NCBI RefSeq assembly: GCF_000709345.1
Contig: NZ_KL448323.1
Location: forward strand, 1,210,912-1,274,911
DNA length: 64,000 nt
Reading direction: 5' to 3'
Source of the DNA: Polaromonas glacialis
GTDB lineage: Bacteria; Pseudomonadota; Gammaproteobacteria; Burkholderiales; Burkholderiaceae_C
Part shown: one piece after another, positions 4,109 to 62,076 of the stretch
Layout: each line of letters begins with the position of its first letter
Position numbering within the stretch: position 1 is the first letter of the stretch
The notes under the pieces: model-generated
What the model was told of the DNA's origin: nothing
What the model saw: only the letters and a program-made list of their open reading frames with translations
Database searches by the model: none
Translations under genes and position numbers: made by a program

Positions 4109-5350
4109 GTGGCGCTTACCGACACCTTCACGCGAAACACCAAGCACAGCGGCGCACCTGCTGGCGACAAGCACAGCGACGGCGGCGGGATGTACCTGCA
4201 CATCACCAAGGCCGGGAAATACTGGCGCATGAATTACCGCTTCGCAGGCAAGCAAAAGACGCTGGCGCTTGGCGTGTACCCGGCGGTATCGCTGGCCGAG
4301 GCCCGGCAAGGACGCGACAAGGCCCGCAAGCTGCTGGCGCAAGGCACAGACCCTAGTACCGCCAAGCGTGAAGATCAACGCGCCACGGCGACGGCAGCGG
4401 CAAACACCTTCGAGCTGGTGGCGCGGGAGTTTCACAAAAGCAAAGGAGATTCCTGGTCAACCGCCTATGCCGCCAAGTGGCTGCGCGGCCTGGAGAAAGA
4501 CCTGTTCCCCTACGTGGGCGCGCTTGCGCTGGCAACCATCACGGCACCTGTGCTGCTCGACGCTTTGCGCCGGGTAGAAAAGCGCGGTGCGATTGAATCG
4601 GCCCACACCCTCAGGCAGACAGCCGGGCAGGTGTTCCTCTATGGCGTGCAGACAGGGCGCTGTGAACGCAATCCTGCACCTGATCTGAATGGCGCATTGA
4701 AGCCCGTCAACGTCACGCACATGGCCGCCATCCTAGAGCCGGTCAAGGTAGGCGAACTGATGCGCGCCATCGACGGCTATTCAGGCCAGCCCATGACCCG
4801 GACGGCGCTGGCGCTGTCTGCCTTGCTGTTCCAGCGGCCTGGCAACATCCGGCAGATGGAATGGGGCTGGGTGAATGTTGAAGCTGCCTTGATGACCATC
4901 CCCAGCGAGGACATGAAGCGGCGCAAGCACCAGAAGGTGAACGGCAGGCCGCACCTGGTTCCGTTGGCACCGCAAGCGCTGGCCTATCTGGCCGAGTTGC
5001 GCCCATTGACCGGCCACGGGCGGTATGTGTTTCCCAGCCTGCGCACGGGTGAGAGGCCAATGAGCGACAACACCATCAATGCAGCTTTGCGGCGCATGGG
5101 GTTCAGCCAAGACGAGATGAGCGCCCACGGATTCAGGGCCACGGCAAGGACGCTGATGATCGAGCGGATGCCCGGCATATCGGCGGACGTGATCGAGGCA
5201 CAACTCGCACACGGTAAATCCGGGCCGCTGGGCATGGCCTACGACCGGGCCGAGTTCATGGAACAGCGGCGCAAGATGATGCTTGAGTGGGCAGACTACC
5301 TGGACAAGCTGCGCATGGGCGGCGAGGTCATCCAGTTTAAGGCGGCATAA
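4109..5350 (+). CDS. Tyrosine integrase, P4 family (DUF4102 N-terminus)
   Basis: Site-specific recombinase expected to insert and excise element 1 at tRNA-Arg. With the GTG start at 4109 (AAAGGG upstream) it is 413 aa and begins VALTDTFTRN, as P4 integrases do. An ATG at 4010 would add 33 residues over the arm-site repeats and was rejected. The N-terminal DUF4102 arm-binding domain (DGGGMYLHITKAGKYWRMNY, then LALGVYPAVSLAEAR) is followed by a core-binding domain and the catalytic domain. Catalytic residues are visible at about R243 (QRPGN), H340 and R343 (AHGFRA), H368 (LAHGK) and Y378. All are present, so the enzyme looks active. Confidence 0.93.
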   Translation: MALTDTFTRNTKHSGAPAGDKHSDGGGMYLHITKAGKYWRMNYRFAGKQKTLALGVYPAVSLAEARQGRDKARKLLAQGTDPSTAKREDQRATATAAANTFELVAREFHKSKGDSWSTAYAAKWLRGLEKDLFPYVGALALATITAPVLLDALRRVEKRGAIESAHTLRQTAGQVFLYGVQTGRCERNPAPDLNGALKPVNVTHMAAILEPVKVGELMRAIDGYSGQPMTRTALALSALLFQRPGNIRQMEWGWVNVEAALMTIPSEDMKRRKHQKVNGRPHLVPLAPQALAYLAELRPLTGHGRYVFPSLRTGERPMSDNTINAALRRMGFSQDEMSAHGFRATARTLMIERMPGISADVIEAQLAHGKSGPLGMAYDRAEFMEQRRKMMLEWADYLDKLRMGGEVIQFKAA

Positions 5351-5455
5351 CAGTTTTGAGCCACGCCTAGCCACGGACTAATTACCCGTGGTGAACACCG
5401 GGACACCCTGACCCGGCGGCGCTGGTTTTCTTTTCAGGTGCGAGATAGGGAACGC

Positions 5456-6064
5456 ATGTACGGCAAAAAACTTTCAACTGAACGAGCACTGAAATATATC
5501 GACGCACACCTTATTGGGGATGGGCAGCACTCAATTGAAAAGGTTGTTGTCGTAGTTGAATGGGTAAACAGGTTGATTGACGATGAGCGCCAATTCGGCA
5601 TAGGAACGCAAGAAGAACAGCTTGAGTTGTTTGAATATTTGGTTTGTATTTCGCGCAAAAAGCCTCATGGAGGCATAGACGTTTTGGCAAAAATGATGAT
5701 GACCAAATGGGTAGAGAAGTCACAAAATTTGTACGCCAAGGCATACCGTTTGGGGCACGACGACGGAAATATAAACGGGAGTCACCACGCCACTAAAAGA
5801 GGCATTGCGAAGGTTGAAAAGGTAAAAAAAATAAACGTTAATCGAGCGTCAGTAAGAGGGCGTGCTGCAGCCGATGCGCTACACAGCAAACCGGGCAACA
5901 GTCGGGATAAGCAAGATGCAATCCGCGCCGCATGGGCAGGCGGAAATTATTCAAGTCGTGATTTATGTGCAGAACAAGAATGCGCCGCATTGAATATGGC
6001 ATTTGGCACAGCGAGAAGGGCGCTACGCAATACGCCTGAGCCGCCTAGACGCTGCACTGCATAG
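5456..6064 (+). CDS. Hypothetical protein of element 1
   Basis: A 202-aa protein that I do not recognise. It is more AT-rich than its neighbours, which suggests a separate origin within the element. The N-terminal half is acidic and helical (LFEYLVCISRKKPHGGIDVL); the C-terminal half is basic (KRGIAKVEKVKKINVNRASV) and ends with a segment that could be helix-turn-helix-like (WAGGNYSSRDLCAEQECAAL), so DNA binding is possible. The ATG at 5456 follows AGGGAA; a GTG at 5438 is an alternative. It sits between the integrase and the AlpA-like gene, where regulators and excision functions are common. The role is unknown. Confidence 0.6.
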   Translation: MYGKKLSTERALKYIDAHLIGDGQHSIEKVVVVVEWVNRLIDDERQFGIGTQEEQLELFEYLVCISRKKPHGGIDVLAKMMMTKWVEKSQNLYAKAYRLGHDDGNINGSHHATKRGIAKVEKVKKINVNRASVRGRAAADALHSKPGNSRDKQDAIRAAWAGGNYSSRDLCAEQECAALNMAFGTARRALRNTPEPPRRCTA

Positions 6065-6082
6065 GCTAGACGCTGCACTGCA
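6045..6082. repeat. 17-nt tandem direct repeat before the AlpA-like gene
   Basis: CTAGACGCTGCACTGCA occurs twice (6045-6061 and 6066-6082) with a 21-bp period, two helical turns. It straddles the end of the hypothetical gene and the leader of the AlpA-like gene, so it could be a same-face binding site for a regulator. The role is inferred. Confidence 0.55.
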
Positions 6083-6146
6083 CAAGGGATTCCAGCAAGG
6101 AAAGTAAAGCTCAACACTGTGGCCTTCACTCACAGAAGGTTACGCA

Positions 6147-6506
6147 ATGTTGATAAAAGAAACTACCCAAACCAAGACTATTGCCCACGCTATCCCGGCG
6201 CTCAAGGCAACCATCCACCAATCGGTTTTCGACGCCATGGCCGACGGCGCATACATCCGCGAAGCGCTGTTGGTTTCCAGTCCAAAGCGTCCGGGCGTAG
6301 CAGCACCGCTGCCTTTCTCAGCCCCGACCCTTTGGCGAAAAGTCCGAGAGGGCACGTTCTGCAAGCCCTACAAATTGTCCAACCGCGTGACCTGCTGGAA
6401 AGTTGGCGAGGTTCGGGCCTGGCTGGCAGCTCAGGAAGCGCAGACCTACGACACATCGGCTGTGACTGCAAAATTGTCCAAGCGCAATGCGCAGGCGGCA
6501 GCATGA
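6147..6506 (+). CDS. AlpA-like helix-turn-helix regulator
   Basis: A 119-aa DNA-binding protein of the AlpA/excisionase type. The segment LPFSAPTLWRKVREGTF followed by KLSNRVTCWKVGEVRAWL is the typical AlpA wing-helix arrangement that ends in a W-x-x-x-x-V-R-A-W-L helix. In P4-like elements such proteins activate integrase or element transcription and affect excision. The C-terminal tail after residue 95 is unstructured. Its stop overlaps the ATG of the next gene (ATGA), and at least five coupled genes follow, so it probably heads an operon running to the primase. Confidence 0.82.
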   Translation: MLIKETTQTKTIAHAIPALKATIHQSVFDAMADGAYIREALLVSSPKRPGVAAPLPFSAPTLWRKVREGTFCKPYKLSNRVTCWKVGEVRAWLAAQEAQTYDTSAVTAKLSKRNAQAAA

Positions 6507-49663: not shown

Positions 49664-50860
49664 TTGCTGACCGATACCAAGCTGCGCAACCTTAAGCCAC
49701 AAGACAAGCTCTACAAGGTGCCCGACCGTGATGGCATGTATGTGGCCGTCACGCCGGCCGGTGGAGTTTCATTCAGGTACAACTATTCAATCAGCGGCAG
49801 GCAGGAGACGCTGACCATCGGCAAGTACGGCACGGGAGGGATCTCGCTGGTCGAGGCGCGTGTAAGGCTCGGTGACGCAAAGAAGCTGATTGCCGAGGGT
49901 CGTTCGCCGGCCAAAGAAAAGGCGCGATCCAAGGCCAAGGTCCAAACGGCTGAAACCTTTGGCGCTTGGGCTGACAAGTGGTTTTCGGGCCATACCATGG
50001 CTGACTCGACGCGAGACATGCGCCAGTCGATATACGACCGCGAATTGAAAGAGCCATTTGCCAAGTGCAAGCTGCCTGAAATCACGCATGAAGATCTGCG
50101 CCGGCTGACCGATGCCATCGTGGCACGCGGCGCGCCGGCCACGGCCGTGCATGCCCGGGAGGTGGTCATGCAGGTGTATCGCTGGGCCAAAGAGCGCGGC
50201 GTGTCGGTGGAAAACCCGGCTGATCTGGTGCGGCCCAATTCAATTGCGACGTTCGAAGCCCGGGACCGGGCATTGACGCCGGAAGAAATCGGCCTGATGT
50301 ACACCTACCTGCAGCGGATCGGTACAACGCCGTCGATCCGCTCGGCGGCCAAGTTGCTGCTGCTGACCATGGTGCGCAAGTCCGAGTTGACGGATGCGAC
50401 ATGGAATGAGGTCAATTTTGGCCAGGCGCTCTGGACCATCCCGAAGGAGCGCATGAAGCGGCGCAACCCGCACAATGTTTACCTGTCAAAGCAGGTGCTG
50501 GAAATTTTTGTAGCACTCAAGACGTTTGCCGGTGGCTCGCGTTACCTGCTGCCGTCGCGCTACGATCCGGATCTGCCGATGTCTAGCGCCACGCTCAACC
50601 AAGTGCTGACGCTGACCTACCGGCTGGCGCAAAAGGAAGGCAAGAATCTGCCGAAGTTCGGACCACACGACCTGCGCCGCACCGGCTCGACACTGCTGCA
50701 CGAGGCGGGCTACAACACCGACTGGATTGAAAAGTGCCTGGCGCATGAGCAAAAGGGCGTGCGTGCTATCTACAACAAGGCTGAATACCGGGAGCAGCGT
50801 GCCAGCATGCTCCAGGAATGGGCTGACATGATTGACGGCTGGACCCTCACGCCCGCCTGA
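49664..50860 (+). CDS. Tyrosine integrase, P4 family
   Basis: A 398-aa site-specific recombinase, expected to integrate element 2 at guaA. The start is TTG at 49664, giving MLTDTKLRNLKPQDKLYKVP, the usual N-terminus. DUF4102 covers residues 1-90, the core-binding domain 95-185. Catalytic residues are R238 (TMVRKSELTD), H335 and R338 (GPHDLRRTGS), H361 (LAHEQKGV) and Y370. All are intact. It is only distantly similar to the element 1 integrase, so the two elements arrived independently. Confidence 0.94.
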   Translation: MLTDTKLRNLKPQDKLYKVPDRDGMYVAVTPAGGVSFRYNYSISGRQETLTIGKYGTGGISLVEARVRLGDAKKLIAEGRSPAKEKARSKAKVQTAETFGAWADKWFSGHTMADSTRDMRQSIYDRELKEPFAKCKLPEITHEDLRRLTDAIVARGAPATAVHAREVVMQVYRWAKERGVSVENPADLVRPNSIATFEARDRALTPEEIGLMYTYLQRIGTTPSIRSAAKLLLLTMVRKSELTDATWNEVNFGQALWTIPKERMKRRNPHNVYLSKQVLEIFVALKTFAGGSRYLLPSRYDPDLPMSSATLNQVLTLTYRLAQKEGKNLPKFGPHDLRRTGSTLLHEAGYNTDWIEKCLAHEQKGVRAIYNKAEYREQRASMLQEWADMIDGWTLTPA

Positions 50861-55753: not shown

Positions 55754-56066
55754 TTGAGCCTCCGAGGTAAATAAGCCCGCAAGGTGGGGGTCGGCTTATG
55801 GCTGCCTGGCGCTTCGAGGATTCGCTGCGTTAGGAGAATAATATTCCGAATAAGGAACATATGCAATAACAATAACGGAACAATGTTTATTATTCGGAAT
55901 ATCAACGGGTCCTATACGGAATTTGTTGAATGCTTTTGAACTCTGGTTCCGCAGGTTGAATGTTTCCTGTGCTGCTGTTGGTGAATGCCCAACAAAAACA
56001 GAGCCTTTCATTGATATCTGGTACCCTAAAGGTGTCGCCAAATAGACTTTCCAGGGGGTAATTCCT
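55754..56066. other. Gene-free operator region of the leftward operon
   Basis: About 310 nt without a credible gene. It holds three operator-like sites: 55843-55858 (in the promoter), TTATTCGGAATAT at 55890-55902, and GTCCTATACGGAATT at 55909-55923. The first two form a 13-bp inverted repeat 36 nt apart. The spacing recalls the multiple operators of lambda-like phages. Confidence 0.6.
55838..55866 (-). promoter_or_regulatory. Predicted leftward early promoter with operator in spacer
   Basis: On the minus strand TTGCAT (55866-55861) and TATTAT (55843-55838) are 17 nt apart. The spacer contains GTTCCTTATTCGGAAT, which matches 13 of 16 positions of the sequence inside the rightward promoter at 59475-59503. 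This is the layout of a repressor-controlled phage early promoter. Confidence 0.65.
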
Positions 56067-56282
56067 ATGAAGCTTTACTACTCACCATCACGCATTTCCA
56101 ATGGGCCGCGCATAAACGAAGCAAGACTGGACGGGAAAAACGTCTCTTTGCAAAGGGTTAAAGCCGTGGCCCTTAGCGCCTCCGCATCGCACGTGAGTCC
56201 ACCTGCGCGTGAAGCGGCGCAAGATTTTGGTTTCTTTCCCAAGGACGTCCAAGGCGTGATTGTTCGTTGGCCCAGCCTGTAA
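56067..56282 (+). CDS. Small protein upstream of nucleotidyltransferase-fold gene
   Basis: A 71-aa basic protein, MKLYYSPSRISNGPRINEAR at the start, preceded by GGGGGTAATTCCT. It overlaps the next gene by 16 nt, so the two form a bicistron. Such a short gene in front of a nucleotidyltransferase could be an antitoxin, but it has no recognised DNA-binding motif. Function unknown. Confidence 0.55.
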   Translation: MKLYYSPSRISNGPRINEARLDGKNVSLQRVKAVALSASASHVSPPAREAAQDFGFFPKDVQGVIVRWPSL

Positions 56283-57133
56283 GGCAGGCCAAAAGGCTGA
56301 GCACGATAGCCGGCCAGCGGGGCATCACGCCCTTCACGCGGGATGATTTCTTCTATGTCACCAGCAAGGTGACGCAAGAGCCCGACCGCTTGGTATTAGT
56401 GGGTGGGCAAGCCTTGGAAACCTGGGGCGTGCTCCTCAAGGTGCCTACGCCCAACGGCCAGCTCCACCCGTTAACCGAAGACACCGACTGGCTGGGGGAC
56501 CGTTCCGATGCGGTATGGCTGGCCAATTTGCTGGGCGTTGAGCATACCGAGTTGTGGAGCCCTTCATTTGATGACTCCACCACCGCCGCAGCGTTGTTGT
56601 ACCTGGAGCGGGTAGAGAGCCAGGTGCTGATGATGGATTTTTTGCGTTGCGTCACCGGCCTTGAAAATCAGGAAATAGACCAGTTGGCCGCTGAAATCGA
56701 AGTGCCCGCACCCGATGGCGGCAGTATCAAGTTGCGGGTGCTGCACCCGCTGCACTGTCTTGTCAGCCGCATGGCCAACCTGGCGGTGCATCCTCGCAAG
56801 CGCCAGGGAAACGGGCCCATGCAAGCCCAGTGGGCCGTGGACATTGTGCGAGCCTATCTTAAAGATTTGGTGCAGAGCGCTACTGAAGGTCAAATTCGCA
56901 AGGCTTGCCACAAGGTGGCCGATATGGCCGAATTTGGTCATGCAGAGTATTGCTATTTGCACTTTGGCATTGATCCCTTGCTGGCCATAACCGGCGACGT
57001 GCTTGCCGCTGGCGGAGAAGGCTTTGTCACCCTGGACTGGCCGCGTACCGTGGCGCGCATAGAAGGCCGGCGCCGAAAATGGCTGGCCCGACAACAGCAC
57101 ATCAGGGAGCGTGCCAAGCTACGGGCGGGCTAA
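56267..57133 (+). CDS. Nucleotidyltransferase-fold protein (AbiEii/MNT-like), candidate toxin or defence gene
   Basis: A 288-aa protein with TTG start at 56267. RLVLVGGQALETWGVLLKV is a G-G nucleotidyltransferase signature, and LTEDTDWLGDRSDAVWLANL, about 25 residues later, supplies the D-x-D metal pair (EDTDW). The remainder is helical with RVLHPLHCLVSRMANLAV and CHKVADMAEFGHAEYCYLHF. The layout matches a group of uncharacterised proteins with VGGQAL and a Thr-x-D-x-D motif related to AbiEii toxins. The GC content is lower than that of neighbours. It converges on the DUF3037-like gene. A toxin or defence role is inferred. Confidence 0.65.
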   Translation: MAQPVRQAKRLSTIAGQRGITPFTRDDFFYVTSKVTQEPDRLVLVGGQALETWGVLLKVPTPNGQLHPLTEDTDWLGDRSDAVWLANLLGVEHTELWSPSFDDSTTAAALLYLERVESQVLMMDFLRCVTGLENQEIDQLAAEIEVPAPDGGSIKLRVLHPLHCLVSRMANLAVHPRKRQGNGPMQAQWAVDIVRAYLKDLVQSATEGQIRKACHKVADMAEFGHAEYCYLHFGIDPLLAITGDVLAAGGEGFVTLDWPRTVARIEGRRRKWLARQQHIRERAKLRAG

Positions 57134-57177: not shown

Positions 57178-58062
57178 CTAGATCACGCCCATGTCTTCCA
57201 GAATGTTCTGGGCCATGGCCCGTTCACTGCTGAATGCGTGCAACTTGGCGCCGCTCTTTTTAAGCAGCCAGGACAAGCCGTCAATTTCCTTTTGAATCAC
57301 GCCCATGTCTGCCCTGGTAAAGCCCTCAATGTCCAGTGGCTGCAGCAGGTACATGATGTTGGAAGCGCTAGGGTAAACCTCGCGGGCCTTGAGCACCGCA
57401 TTAGCCGCCCTGTCTAGGTAGGCGCTGCGGTGGTAATGGGTTTTGTACCAGGCTGAGGCAATCGAGCCTCTGTAGTCGCCTTCTTTGCCGGCACCGAAAA
57501 TCTGCAAATCAATCTGCACCTCGCCGCCGTCCTGGGCCGACACCACAGGTGCTGCACGCCAGAATTCTGGCGCTTTTTTGCTGTGCATGTGCTTGCTCAG
57601 CAATTCACGTACAGTTTTGCGAACATTGCGCGTGGTGTGGGCATGGTCGTCGCCATCGAGCCGCTCGGCCGCGTTTTCGCGTGATCCCAGCGGCACCATG
57701 CGCTTAAACATGCTGTCCACAATGCTCTGCGGCGTTTCACCACGCACGAACAACGGTTCTCCCAAAGAGATGTTCCACCCCGAAGGAATCCGGACTCCTT
57801 GCCCCAGCGCTTGCTCGGCCTGATCAATCAAGAAACCTGCATCGTCGGCCATGTCGTCGTTGTACAGGCAGCGCAGCCCTGACAGGTTGCTCAGAAACCG
57901 GCTGGTGATGCCGCCGCCCTGATGATCTGTAAACACCACGCCGACGTTAAGCTGTTCGCCCGTGGCCCTGTCCAGACATAGGCGTGCAACTTGCCAGATC
58001 CCTTCAGCCCTGGGCTTGAAGGGTATGTCTTTTGGGTCAAGGAGTTGCAACAGCGAATGCAT
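57178..58062 (-). CDS. DUF3037-like protein of the HipA-like kinase operon
   Basis: A 294-aa soluble protein. The segment WQVARLCLDRATGEQLNVGV followed by VFTDHQGG has the pattern of DUF3037 proteins (R-x-x-x-x-x-x-x-G-E-x-x-N-V-G-V). DUF3037 genes are, from memory, frequent neighbours of HipA-like kinase genes; here the start lies 26 nt inside the kinase-like gene. The protein is roughly twice the common length of short DUF3037 members, with a helical C-terminal half ending ERAMAQNILEDMGVI. Possible roles are kinase regulator, substrate or antitoxin; none is demonstrated. Confidence 0.65.
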   Translation of the reverse strand: MHSLLQLLDPKDIPFKPRAEGIWQVARLCLDRATGEQLNVGVVFTDHQGGGITSRFLSNLSGLRCLYNDDMADDAGFLIDQAEQALGQGVRIPSGWNISLGEPLFVRGETPQSIVDSMFKRMVPLGSRENAAERLDGDDHAHTTRNVRKTVRELLSKHMHSKKAPEFWRAAPVVSAQDGGEVQIDLQIFGAGKEGDYRGSIASAWYKTHYHRSAYLDRAANAVLKAREVYPSASNIMYLLQPLDIEGFTRADMGVIQKEIDGLSWLLKKSGAKLHAFSSERAMAQNILEDMGVI

Positions 58063-58936
58063 GAGGTGAAGTCAGGTTAAGAATCCCAAATCGTTTGGAC
58101 AAAAGCGAGTCTACGCGGTGCATGCGCTCGTTCAAAAAATAAAGCCATTGGGCGCTTGTGCCTGGCGACAGCTTGGCGCACCAGTAGGCGATTTCGAAGA
58201 ACACAGAACGCATATTTTGCGCCTGATGCAAGGCGCTGTCACTGCACCGCTTGAAACCGTCTGTTCGGGCGGCCGATGCGCTGATATTGCCGTATACATA
58301 CATATTGTGGTGGATGGCGTTGGCAAACCCATGGTCCAGCAGTCCTTCGAGCTCATCGCCGTGCCAGCAGGGCTCGGCATTGCGGTACAGCAGTCTGCCG
58401 TGGTCGATCAGCGCAAAGTCCTGGTGCGCTTTTCGCACCATGTTGTAGGGGTGCCGGTCAGAGTTGCCGGTGTATTCGTCAAGGGCGATGGCGTCATGCA
58501 CGTGAGGCCAGTGGGCTTGCTCGGTGATGAGTGCGTCGGTGTTTAACAGCCCGGTGGCCTGGGTGCGGCTGATCTCCTGCGTGCAAAAGAACAGGCGCAC
58601 GCCGCCGGGCAACTCAGGGGGCAAGGCGCCGTGTGTGAAGGCTGGCAGTTCGCTGGAGCGTATGTTGGCCAGGAATGCCGAGGCGGCGACCGGCAGTTGG
58701 CCGGCGCGGGCCAGCAACCAGCCGCTGATCTCGTTCAGGCACATCACGACGCCTTGCCGCACCGAGAGGTCGATGGCCTTGGCATAGACGTCAGTCGGGC
58801 CTGTGCCGGGCAGGTCAAACTGGCAGTGGAGCACGGGGCAGACATTGTCCTGGTCGTCATTGGCCCACCGGTAGGGGGTAATGAAATTATCGGGGTTGGC
58901 CAGTCCAATCAGGAAGTGGTTGGGCTGGTAGGTCAT
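58037..58936 (-). CDS. HipA-like kinase-domain protein
   Basis: A 299-aa protein with kinase-like landmarks: VYAKAID with K53, LNEISGWLLARAGQLPVAAS (Glu in helix C and the G-L-P-V pattern of HipA proteins), and the catalytic loop LDEYTGNSDRHPYNMV with D160, R161 and N165, then FALIDHGRLL with metal-binding D178. This motif set matches the HipA_2 group, a branch distinct from classical HipA. It is ATGA-coupled to the upstream helix-turn-helix gene and overlaps the DUF3037-like gene. The target could be a tRNA synthetase or another protein, as for HipA/HipT; the family is not well studied. Confidence 0.72.
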   Translation of the reverse strand: MTYQPNHFLIGLANPDNFITPYRWANDDQDNVCPVLHCQFDLPGTGPTDVYAKAIDLSVRQGVVMCLNEISGWLLARAGQLPVAASAFLANIRSSELPAFTHGALPPELPGGVRLFFCTQEISRTQATGLLNTDALITEQAHWPHVHDAIALDEYTGNSDRHPYNMVRKAHQDFALIDHGRLLYRNAEPCWHGDELEGLLDHGFANAIHHNMYVYGNISASAARTDGFKRCSDSALHQAQNMRSVFFEIAYWCAKLSPGTSAQWLYFLNERMHRVDSLLSKRFGILNLTSPHAFAVATP

Positions 58937-59436
58937 GACTTGTTGGCGGCCTTGTTAACGAGGTCGGTGGTGCGGGTGACCGGCTTGGCTTTTAGCACCA
59001 TGTCCGCCACGGGCGTTGATTGGGCAGGTGGGTTGATGCGCTGCAGGCTGTCGTGCAGCCAGGCAATGTCGCCTTCTTCTAGTTGTCCGGCCAGCGTGCG
59101 GGTGCACAAATCTTCGACGAGCGCGCGCGCCCGCGGTGACATGGCGCGCCACTCCTCATCGGGCATAACGGGCGGGCGCGGCTCCCCCATGCGTAAAGGC
59201 TCGCCGGCGGCCAGCCGCTTGAGCAGGTCCGGGTCAAGAATGTCGCAGGCCCGCAGCTTGAAGGCCTTGGCGACCTTTTCTACGCTATCGATTTGAGCGG
59301 CACCTTCATCCAATCGCATTCGACGAATTGTCGTTTTTGGGACGTCCGCAAGGATGCTCAGCGAATGCTCTGTAAGACCAGCGTTTGCGTCTATCAAGCC
59401 TTTGAGATTTTTAGAAAGAATGGCTGTTGTATCCAT
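58933..59436 (-). CDS. Helix-turn-helix repressor-like protein
   Basis: A 167-aa regulator. The N-terminal HTH is TEHSLSILADVPKTTIRRMR with DSVEKVAKAFKLRACDILDP after it, an XRE-type pattern. The C-terminal half (DEEWRAMSPRARALVEDLCT) resembles the small non-peptidase domain of some phage repressors. ATG at 59436 was preferred to 59466. Divergent from a Cro-like gene, it could be the prophage repressor, the antitoxin-like partner of the kinase, or both. The stop overlaps the kinase start. Confidence 0.75.
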   Translation of the reverse strand: MDTTAILSKNLKGLIDANAGLTEHSLSILADVPKTTIRRMRLDEGAAQIDSVEKVAKAFKLRACDILDPDLLKRLAAGEPLRMGEPRPPVMPDEEWRAMSPRARALVEDLCTRTLAGQLEEGDIAWLHDSLQRINPPAQSTPVADMVLKAKPVTRTTDLVNKAANKS

Positions 59437-59474: not shown

Positions 59475-59503
59475 TTGTGAAGTTCCGAATTCGGACTCAT
59501 AAT
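59475..59503 (+). promoter_or_regulatory. Predicted rightward early promoter with palindromic operator
   Basis: TTGTGA (59475-59480) and CATAAT (59498-59503) are 17 nt apart. The spacer contains TCCGAATTCGGA, a perfect 12-bp palindrome at 59484-59495, within GTTCCGAATTCGGACT. It matches the operator in the leftward promoter. A transcript would begin at or within a few nt of the ATG at 59511. Confidence 0.68.
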
Positions 59504-59510
59504 GCGACCT

Positions 59511-59924
59511 ATGTTTATTAACTTACACAGCCATGTTCTGGCCAAGTTGGCTGCGCGTGAGATTCCCTGGACGCAGGTGGCACGCGACACCGGCATTCCG
59601 TATGAAACCCTGAAAAAGATTGCATCGGGCCGCACGCCCAATCCAGGGGTGCAGCATGTGCAAAAGCTGGCTGACTACTTTGGGGGCAGCTTGCTGGCCA
59701 GCGACCGGCCCGCAGAATCCGAAAGCCAAGCCATGCCAACGCCTCAAGAGGTTTTCATGAAGTTGGCCGATGGGCTGGCGTTACAAGAGCGGCGCATTGG
59801 CCCGACTGACCGGCGCATGGTTAAACAACAGTTTGACGGTCCGGAAAAGCGCATCTCTCTGGTGCCGCACCGGACTGTTGATCGTAGGCAGGTAGATATC
59901 GCCAGCGAAGGGCAGGGGGTCTGA
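59511..59924 (+). CDS. Cro/CI-type helix-turn-helix regulator
   Basis: A 137-aa DNA-binding protein. LAAREIPWTQVARDTGIPYE and TLKKIASGRTPNPGVQHVQK form an XRE HTH. The rest is polar, with LADGLALQERRIGPTDRRMV. The ATG at 59511 was chosen over 59502, because the latter overlaps the predicted -10 box. The mRNA may be leaderless. As the first rightward gene it is placed like Cro. Confidence 0.78.
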   Translation: MFINLHSHVLAKLAAREIPWTQVARDTGIPYETLKKIASGRTPNPGVQHVQKLADYFGGSLLASDRPAESESQAMPTPQEVFMKLADGLALQERRIGPTDRRMVKQQFDGPEKRISLVPHRTVDRRQVDIASEGQGV

Positions 59925-61513: not shown

Positions 61514-61545
61514 GATTTTTCCTTTTCATCCGTGAGGTGCTTTTC

Positions 61546-62076
61546 ATGAGACCAACTATCTCAATTCCACCTGGCCTTGCCTATGGCGAAAATGAGGCGC
61601 TTCCAGCCAACCCGGCCGGTCGTGATGTGCGCATGGCCATCGCGCACCTGGTGCATTCATTTCCTGGCGGTGTCCTGGCGCTGGCCAAGCGCTCGGGCGT
61701 GTCGGCCAACACCTTGCAGCACAAGGCCAATCTGAACAACGACACGCACCATCTGCGGGTCGATGAGCTGCAGCTGCTGCAGCATGCAACGGGTGATATC
61801 GGGCCGACTCAGGCGCTGGCCGCTGCCGAGGGATATGTCTGCATTCGGATCAACCCGGTCGAGCCCACCAGCCTGCTCGATGGCCAGGCGCGCATTCAAG
61901 ATGCCCTTGCCGAGTTGACCCGTGCGGCCTGTGACGCGACGGCTTCGGGCTTGCCGGTCACGCGCACCCAGATCAATCGTGTCGAGTTTCACCAGGGCGA
62001 GCTGATCGGCGCGATCAATGCGTTTGGCGCCTTGGTGCGCAACAGGGTGCCCCGCACTTCCGAGGATTCAAAGTGA
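61546..62076 (+). CDS. Phage CII-like regulatory protein (CP76 family)
   Basis: A 176-aa protein. The helix-turn-helix region HSFPGGVLALAKRSGVSANT with LQHKANLNNDTHHLRVDELQ is the signature of the phage CII/CP76 family, including the following LLQHATGD. The C-terminal half has DALAELTRAACDATASGLPV. Members regulate the lysis-lysogeny decision or early transcription. ATG at 61546 was chosen over GTG at 61537. Its stop overlaps the next GTG. Confidence 0.85.
   Translation: MRPTISIPPGLAYGENEALPANPAGRDVRMAIAHLVHSFPGGVLALAKRSGVSANTLQHKANLNNDTHHLRVDELQLLQHATGDIGPTQALAAAEGYVCIRINPVEPTSLLDGQARIQDALAELTRAACDATASGLPVTRTQINRVEFHQGELIGAINAFGALVRNRVPRTSEDSK

Follow-up and report, generated by a model that had tools for sequence, protein, structure and literature searches.

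A HipA-like kinase encoded next to a DUF3037 protein forms a pair that PADLOC lists as PDC-M66 (PMC12548924), and relatives of this pair have been found to defend against phages. As far as the available text of that report goes, deletion of the kinase in the Retron-Sda1 operon abolished defence against Bas51 and deletion of the DUF3037 gene was toxic (PMC12548924). Under the name DS-6, the DS-6A/DS-6B pair likewise defends against phage and its catalytic mutant does not; the accessible part of that paper gives AlphaFold3-predicted contacts between DS-6A and DS-6B and, more weakly, with DNA, and renames the system HipAD after a 2025 study of E. coli prophages by Brenes and Laub (PMC13092281). 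In the HipBST system, according to the portion of the article that was accessible, HipB is the regulator and HipS, a separate protein that neutralises the kinase, is the antitoxin (PMC10627512). Here we compare with these systems a three-gene operon found in 64,000 nucleotides (nt) of Polaromonas glacialis DNA (contig NZ_KL448323.1, positions 1,210,912 to 1,274,911; this whole stretch is the window), and we argue that it is probably a prophage cI operon, in which a repressor that has a hairpin tail and no S24 domain is coupled to a divergent HipAD pair.

The window operon resembles HipAD in the succession of a HipA-like kinase and a DUF3037 protein, whose relatives act in phage defence, although the window pair is divergent from it; HipAD is described as two genes in the available parts of its sources, whereas the window and its relatives add, in first position, a CI-type helix-turn-helix (HTH) protein with a tail of its own. 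Retron-Sda1 also combines an HTH protein, a HipA-like kinase and a DUF3037 protein in one operon, and phage defence was tested there; unlike the window operon as we read it, it has an additional retron, and the accessible text does not describe its HTH protein as a prophage repressor. HipBST and HipBA also combine an HTH regulator with a HipA-family kinase. By contrast, the window HTH gene lies in a prophage immunity region, the third protein falls with DUF3037/PDC-M66B and not with HipS on a set of profiles that did not include HipS, and the kinase stands in the middle (HTH-kinase-DUF3037). With lambda-type S24 CI repressors the window HTH protein has its position, a divergent cro-like gene and a related N-terminal DNA-binding domain in common, but in place of S24 it has the hairpin tail, and its operon includes the kinase pair. 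The HipAD pair is already known; no description of a CI repressor coupled to it was found in the literature searched (mostly open-access, in part only, without bioRxiv), and the proposed coupling rests on several comparative results. DUF3037 turned up in three papers of that literature, one of which, to judge by its title, deals with plant RNA decay.

The operon and its relatives

The operon lies on the minus strand and consists of three open reading frames (ORFs), all of them intact:

58933..59436, minus strand: HTH protein, 167 residues, encoded first in the operon and probably a CI-type immunity repressor of the S24-less kind (match to phrog_4583, a transcriptional repressor family, at E 0.0048; position; no S24 match in the prophage)
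59035..59139, minus strand: divergent hairpin tail, spanning residues 100-134 of that protein (tail-profile score 12.4 bits, 0/2000 shuffles as high)
58037..58936, minus strand: HipA-like kinase, 299 residues (invariant catalytic residues; phrog_11186, E 3e-13; structural model nearest CtkA, with HipA lower)
57178..58062, minus strand: DUF3037-like protein, 294 residues, probable antitoxin (PDC-M66B, E 9e-4; phrog_14695, E 3e-19; DUF3037 matches of its relatives)

An ATGA at 58933-58936 joins the HTH stop to the kinase start (4-nt overlap), and the 3' end of the kinase overlaps the DUF3037-like start by 26 nt (58037-58062), as a preliminary description of this DNA, made from the letters alone, had noted.

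As sole query the window kinase brought up nothing beyond its own genome and two records of Moraxella phages, and relatives were therefore sought through alignments. Loci from IMG/VR scans with kinase and DUF3037, from genome searches and from two phage records were grouped into 36 clusters at 90% kinase identity, each counted by one representative; having been gathered with a few short patterns, they are samples and form no census. We excluded L032 (incomplete kinase), L014, L054, L056, L057, L058 and L102 (kinase, no DUF3037 match), L103 (short; the longer stretch L108 is included) and the later-fetched L111-L125, of which L111-L122 are contigs already counted. In 28 of the 36 clusters the kinase and DUF3037 ORFs overlap by exactly 4 nt, so their linkage is not a matter of chance.

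In a first class (15/36), the kinase ORF start is overlapped by an HTH gene whose product has no S24 domain and ends in a common C-terminal hairpin tail of the form SPRSRxxLxRIxxAAxxGRLTEDDLxLLDxIAxRFE. A second class (8/36) has a same-strand S24-type CI gene, ending between 964 nt upstream of the kinase ORF and 85 nt into it. A tailed HTH and an S24-type CI were never found together nearby (0/36). Six clusters (the window, L003, L006, L007, L008 and L091) have an S24-less HTH adjoining the kinase with a tail that the profile missed, six (L051, L052, L053, L055, L095 and L101) lack an HTH that abuts the kinase, and one (L059/L060) is a chromosomal HTH-kinase-DUF3037 set; the last two groups stand on neither side of the S24 comparison below. 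These classes were assigned with a local S24 profile built from seven CIs in the loci, PF00717 being applied to whole records only. The association of HTH gene, kinase and DUF3037 gene suspected in the preliminary description recurs in the first class and in further clusters.

The chromosomal sets L059 and L060 have 4-nt overlaps, a different HTH C-terminus and only a weak match to the DUF3037 profile. At L054, L056 and L102, a HipA-like kinase with no DUF3037 match directly follows a gene that by eye resembles HsdS (type I restriction specificity).

Joint inheritance of tail and kinase, and exchange of the S24 domain

In the 15 tailed clusters we compared the divergence of the operon's parts (Mantel tests, Spearman). 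Tail divergence followed that of the kinase (rho 0.81) and of the DUF3037 protein (rho 0.70), and kinase and DUF3037 protein followed each other (rho 0.85), with 0/2000 permutations as high in each case, whereas the N-terminus followed neither the kinase (rho -0.02, 1171/2000) nor the tail (rho -0.08, 1603/2000). With the 36-residue hairpin alone, compared by local score, the correlations were 0.65 with the kinase (0/5000) and 0.50 with the DUF3037 protein (5/5000); in the same run kinase and DUF3037 protein gave 0.84 (0/5000), N-terminus and kinase 0.01 (2183/5000), and N-terminus and hairpin -0.10 (4328/5000). Since the tail tracks the kinase and the DNA-binding half does not, the inherited cassette is tail, kinase and DUF3037 protein, grafted onto different repressors; this comparison shows the three to be jointly inherited and the DNA-binding half to be exchanged. 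Moreover, codons in the hairpin vary while its residues stay (proportions of synonymous and nonsynonymous differences, pS 0.76 and pN 0.35), so that selection acts on the protein. The conserved last tail residues were rejected as a docking motif: the kinase's own ribosome site and start dictate R (AGG, 13/13) and D (GAT, 14/14), and because of this confounding the tail claim rests on the hairpin.

Searches that started from the tail led back to the kinase in most cases. A single tail (L028) as query retrieved 1 of 50,697 phage records, that of Pseudomonas phage D14P. A four-tail alignment retrieved 15 loci in IMG/VR, two of them spurious; all 13 tailed HTHs adjoin a HipA-like kinase, 12 of the 13 with DUF3037, and twelve were already known, L123 being new. 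With an eight-tail profile, three matches were obtained in 369 genomes of the class (at most 15 candidates scored per genome, a search that missed the window's own protein): L103, which adjoins a kinase and, on its longer stretch L108, has DUF3037 as well, the spurious L105, and L104, so that one of the two true matches lies beside a kinase. Against the tail profile, residues 89-167 of the window HTH protein reach 12.4 bits, a value attained by 0/2000 shuffles (maximum 9.5), and we accordingly read the window tail as a divergent version of the hairpin tail. The new locus L123 (3596-5662) comprises a tailed HTH, a short HipA-like kinase (239 residues) and a third gene of 282 residues with no DUF3037 match; judging from it, HipA operons of several kinds may make use of the tail.

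For PF00717 we scanned 42 whole records, in sets of 34 and 8. There was no S24 match in 28 of the 30 records with an S24-less HTH adjoining the kinase, and there was one in all 12 records lacking such an HTH; the Fisher value for the S24 comparison is descriptive only, because the classes had been seen before the test. Furthermore, 12 of the 15 tailed proteins have a match at E <1e-3 among nine S24 CIs, with N-terminal identities of up to 72% over 69 residues (L028/L109); other pairs give 61% over 94 (L028/L098), 62-64% over about 92 (L073 and L081 against L089) and 55% over 101 (L004/L085). Related DNA-binding domains occur either with S24 or with the HipAD-linked tail, which shows, by comparison, repeated exchange. 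By these results, tailed HTH proteins stand in for S24-type CI in related prophages.

Several observations weigh against a working link between repressor and kinase. Joint inheritance of tail and kinase could reflect linkage alone, and L104 has a hairpin HTH with no kinase in its 3.1-kb stretch. Two records with an S24-less HTH, L035 and L082, do contain an S24 match: that of L035 is a 146-residue frame at a contig edge (the records of L015 and L089 have similar edge frames of 145 and 160 residues), and that of L082, lying some 53 kb off within a record of 98 kb, is an S24 CI opposite a divergent cro-like gene and resembles a second immunity region. Many of the counted records hardly differ from one another, as do eight in the D14P group, and are possibly fragments. 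As for the window itself, the tail profile did not find its tail at E 0.001 in the genome search, and the tails of its nearest relatives are weak, their scores being reached by 1 (L007), 12 (P0005, Mcat22), 14 (L008) and 28 (L006) of 2000 shuffles. Finally, deletion of the HTH gene had no effect on Retron-Sda1 defence in the part of the report available (PMC12548924). The three-part module envisaged in the preliminary description holds for the pair, which defends in relatives, whereas the HTH protein as a working part is unproven and, in Retron-Sda1, dispensable.

Two loci named here have further features of their own. The hairpin HTH of L104 (1498-1980, minus strand) is without the tail end and adjoins a moeA-like gene. 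In the L082 record, the second cI/cro region (L109, about 5318-6380) encodes the S24 CI that matches the tailed L028 protein with 72% identity in the N-terminal domain.

The alternative that survives best is that HipAD is only a passenger, a lysogenic-conversion pair on the cI promoter, with the hairpin a dimerisation element that replaces S24 and follows the kinase by adjacency, so that repressor and kinase act independently of each other. Repressor genes are sites of recombination, HipAD also stands behind ordinary S24 CI genes (the 8/36 clusters of the second class) and at chromosomal places without an abutting HTH, and the Retron-Sda1 deletion points the same way. The near confinement of the tail to kinase-adjacent HTHs in our samples (13/13 and one of two, as above) and the protein-level selection on it argue against adjacency, and we regard the passenger explanation as possible, short of probable.

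On the reading that we favour, a tailed repressor coupled to HipAD, the repressor, kinase and DUF3037 protein would all be made in the lysogen, where the repressor would keep lytic genes off and fix the dose of the kinase/DUF3037 pair, and the DUF3037 protein would keep the kinase silent. A superinfecting phage might upset this balance and free the kinase, which would then phosphorylate a host target, such that the infection is aborted. The tail would most likely bind the kinase/DUF3037 complex, as HipB holds HipA or HipT; the divergent pair of the window is presumably still functional, and physical docking of the tail and any control of induction are suppositions of the model. The coupling would place HipAD, known as a two-gene defence pair, inside the decision circuit of a group of temperate phages. 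Docking of the pair by the tail, if it occurs, would offer a possible control route for some S24-less repressors and a way for a prophage to keep a toxin under a lysogen-only promoter. Similar repressors with either C-terminus (for example L028 as against L098 and L109) make the coupling directly testable.

The usual SOS sensor is missing from tailed repressors, and their release may depend on something else. In a bolder version, which we consider rather doubtful, the state of the kinase/DUF3037 pair and not RecA would decide the repressor's hold on its operators, with a docking tail in place of the SOS-cleaved S24 domain. Were this sensor version true, one complex would hold lysogeny and detect rival phages, and induction would be tied to defence.

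The HTH protein as the probable prophage repressor

The same DNA is present in IMG/VR as a 37,949-base prophage, which by arithmetic begins at window position 49664 and extends beyond the window, to about 87612 if the numbering is continued. Among its genes are those for integrase, terminase, portal, head protease, head decoration and tape measure; no direct repeats of at least 14 nt were found between the two prophage end stretches compared. The following features lie to either side of the operon:

59502..59924, plus strand: divergent HTH gene in the cro position (HTH_3, E 1.5e-5, above the cut-off; phrog_9425, E 4e-17)
61537..62076, plus strand: CII-family regulator, Phage_CP76 (E 1.3e-22; phrog_101)
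49664..50860, plus strand: integrase, left end of the prophage (phrog_1, E 4e-73)
59484..59495, no strand: 12-bp perfect palindrome TCCGAATTCGGA in the HTH/cro spacer, candidate operator only (inside a sigma-70-like match, 59475-59503)

The HTH gene occupies a CI-type position, divergent from the cro-like gene and with the CII gene beyond it, and together with the integrase and structural genes this bears out the prophage immunity position proposed in the preliminary description. The counterpart in D14P is annotated 'phage repressor protein cI', opposite a 'Cro protein', and the HTH of Moraxella phage Mcat22 lies above the Pfam cut-off for Phage_CI_repr. More broadly, the N-termini of ten HTHs are spread over several repressor PHROGs, and one HTH, the one just mentioned, passes the Phage_CI_repr cut-off. 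A small divergent ORF, cro-like by eye, lies upstream in 28/28 listed loci, and 16 of the 21 divergent ORFs scanned in S24-less loci match phrog_35, named transcriptional repressor. Neither the window HTH protein nor its prophage has a Peptidase_S24 (PF00717) match, the four S24 matches in the genome all lying outside the prophage span. From position and relatives, the window HTH protein is very probably the CI-type immunity repressor of its prophage, the role already suggested for it.

An improbable alternative is that the HTH protein does no more than regulate the toxin-antitoxin operon that encodes it, in the manner of HipB in HipBST, and that the prophage repressor is encoded elsewhere, for instance at 59502-59924. 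The three-gene layout with the HTH first is in keeping with this, the PHROG matched by the 59502-59924 protein bears the name transcriptional repressor, and the protein P0001 has a weak match to the HipB-like TIGR03070 (E 0.04, far below the cut-off). However, the 59502-59924 gene is oriented like cro and is followed by the CII gene, tailed HTHs have their N-terminal domains in common with S24 CI repressors and mostly occur in records without one, and the D14P annotation is cI.

The sigma-70-like match around the spacer palindrome is a consensus match, of a kind found twice against 0.9 expected in shuffles, and no palindrome common to HTH/cro spacers was seen among the 20 loci scanned. The sequence TTCCGAAT occurs in 7 copies in the window (shuffle mean 1.54; 0/100 shuffles reach 7) and was rejected as evidence of a regulon because 4 of the 7 copies lie outside the prophage.

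Identity of the kinase and its partner

In an alignment of 31 sequences, K53, E69, D153, D160, N165, D178 (of IDHG), R161, W191 and N206 of the kinase are invariant, including the landmarks K53, N165 and the aspartate of IDHG singled out earlier. The profile expectations of the preliminary description held for the relatives and failed for the window kinase, which has no Pfam HipA_2 match; neither kinase nor partner passes a Pfam cut-off, and the DUF3037-like protein reaches E 0.25 with Pfam DUF3037 (below the cut-off) and E 9e-4 with PADLOC PDC-M66B. Among the relatives, 22/31 kinases match HipA_2 and 8/31 PDC-M66A, and 14/30 partner proteins match DUF3037 and 22/30 PDC-M66B. By themselves the window proteins have diverged too far for Pfam to place them, and the family assignment therefore rests on these relatives and on the predicted kinase fold.

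The kinase model is confident (predicted local distance difference test, pLDDT, 80; predicted template modelling score, pTM, 0.82). Its top structural neighbour is CtkA (Z 15.2, root-mean-square deviation, rmsd, 3.8, 227 aligned), followed by PI4-kinase II alpha (Z 12.5), with HipA of Shewanella (4pu3) at Z 11.2 and of E. coli (3dnv) at Z 10.3; plain Foldseek ranked PI3-kinases first. The predicted fold is of the HipA/PI3K-like kind, and sequence profiles point to HipA_2. A PDB sequence search with kinase and DUF3037 profiles returned no clear relative. Both a HipA-like kinase and a directly downstream DUF3037 partner are found, as in HipAD, and by these comparisons the window pair is a divergent member of the known anti-phage pair variously called PDC-M66, DS-6 and HipAD. 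The earlier suspicion of a HipA-type kinase with a DUF3037-like partner is supported on this basis; its remark that such pairs have no settled function is out of date, given the defence reported for relatives in the available parts of two papers (PMC12548924, PMC13092281).

The nearest kinase is that of L006 (29-30% identity). The same trio occurs in Mcat22 and D14P, and Moraxella phage Mcat18 has kinase and DUF3037 matches; plasmids gave no match to the window kinase or DUF3037-like protein and one weak match to the D14P kinase. That the window operon is a decaying copy, in which kinase or partner has lost its function and the repressor alone is of consequence, might be argued from a kinase identity to relatives of 17-29% and from the want of a close homologue outside its own genome when the kinase alone is the query, yet three open frames, kept overlaps, a full set of invariant residues and the confident kinase model make this very improbable.

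The model of the DUF3037-like protein (pLDDT 85, pTM 0.55) resembles FAAP24 and ERCC1 in its C-terminal part, residues 143-294, a modest match (Z 9.3 for both, rmsd 2.7 and 3.1, about 110 aligned). Active nucleases of this fold have a (D/E)-x-K motif, to which W205-Y206-K207 may be the counterpart, and a non-catalytic DNA- or protein-binding role is conceivable for the protein. HipS and HipB are absent among the matches listed in the comparison that gave FAAP24 and ERCC1, plain Foldseek gave nothing under E 0.001 with this model, and a viral structure library gave four matches under E 0.001, the sole helpful name being a DUF1828-containing protein.

Convergent with the operon, a plus-strand gene at 56267-57133 encodes a protein that by eye looks like a nucleotidyltransferase, with LVLVGGQALETWG near the gene start; it had no match in Pfam, PADLOC, NCBIfam, PHROGs or PDB sequences. 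To its left, in an AT-rich stretch, lies an inverted pair of ATTCCGAATA (55843-55900), which has TTCCGAAT in common with the HTH/cro spacer palindrome and may be a second operator or a product of chance.

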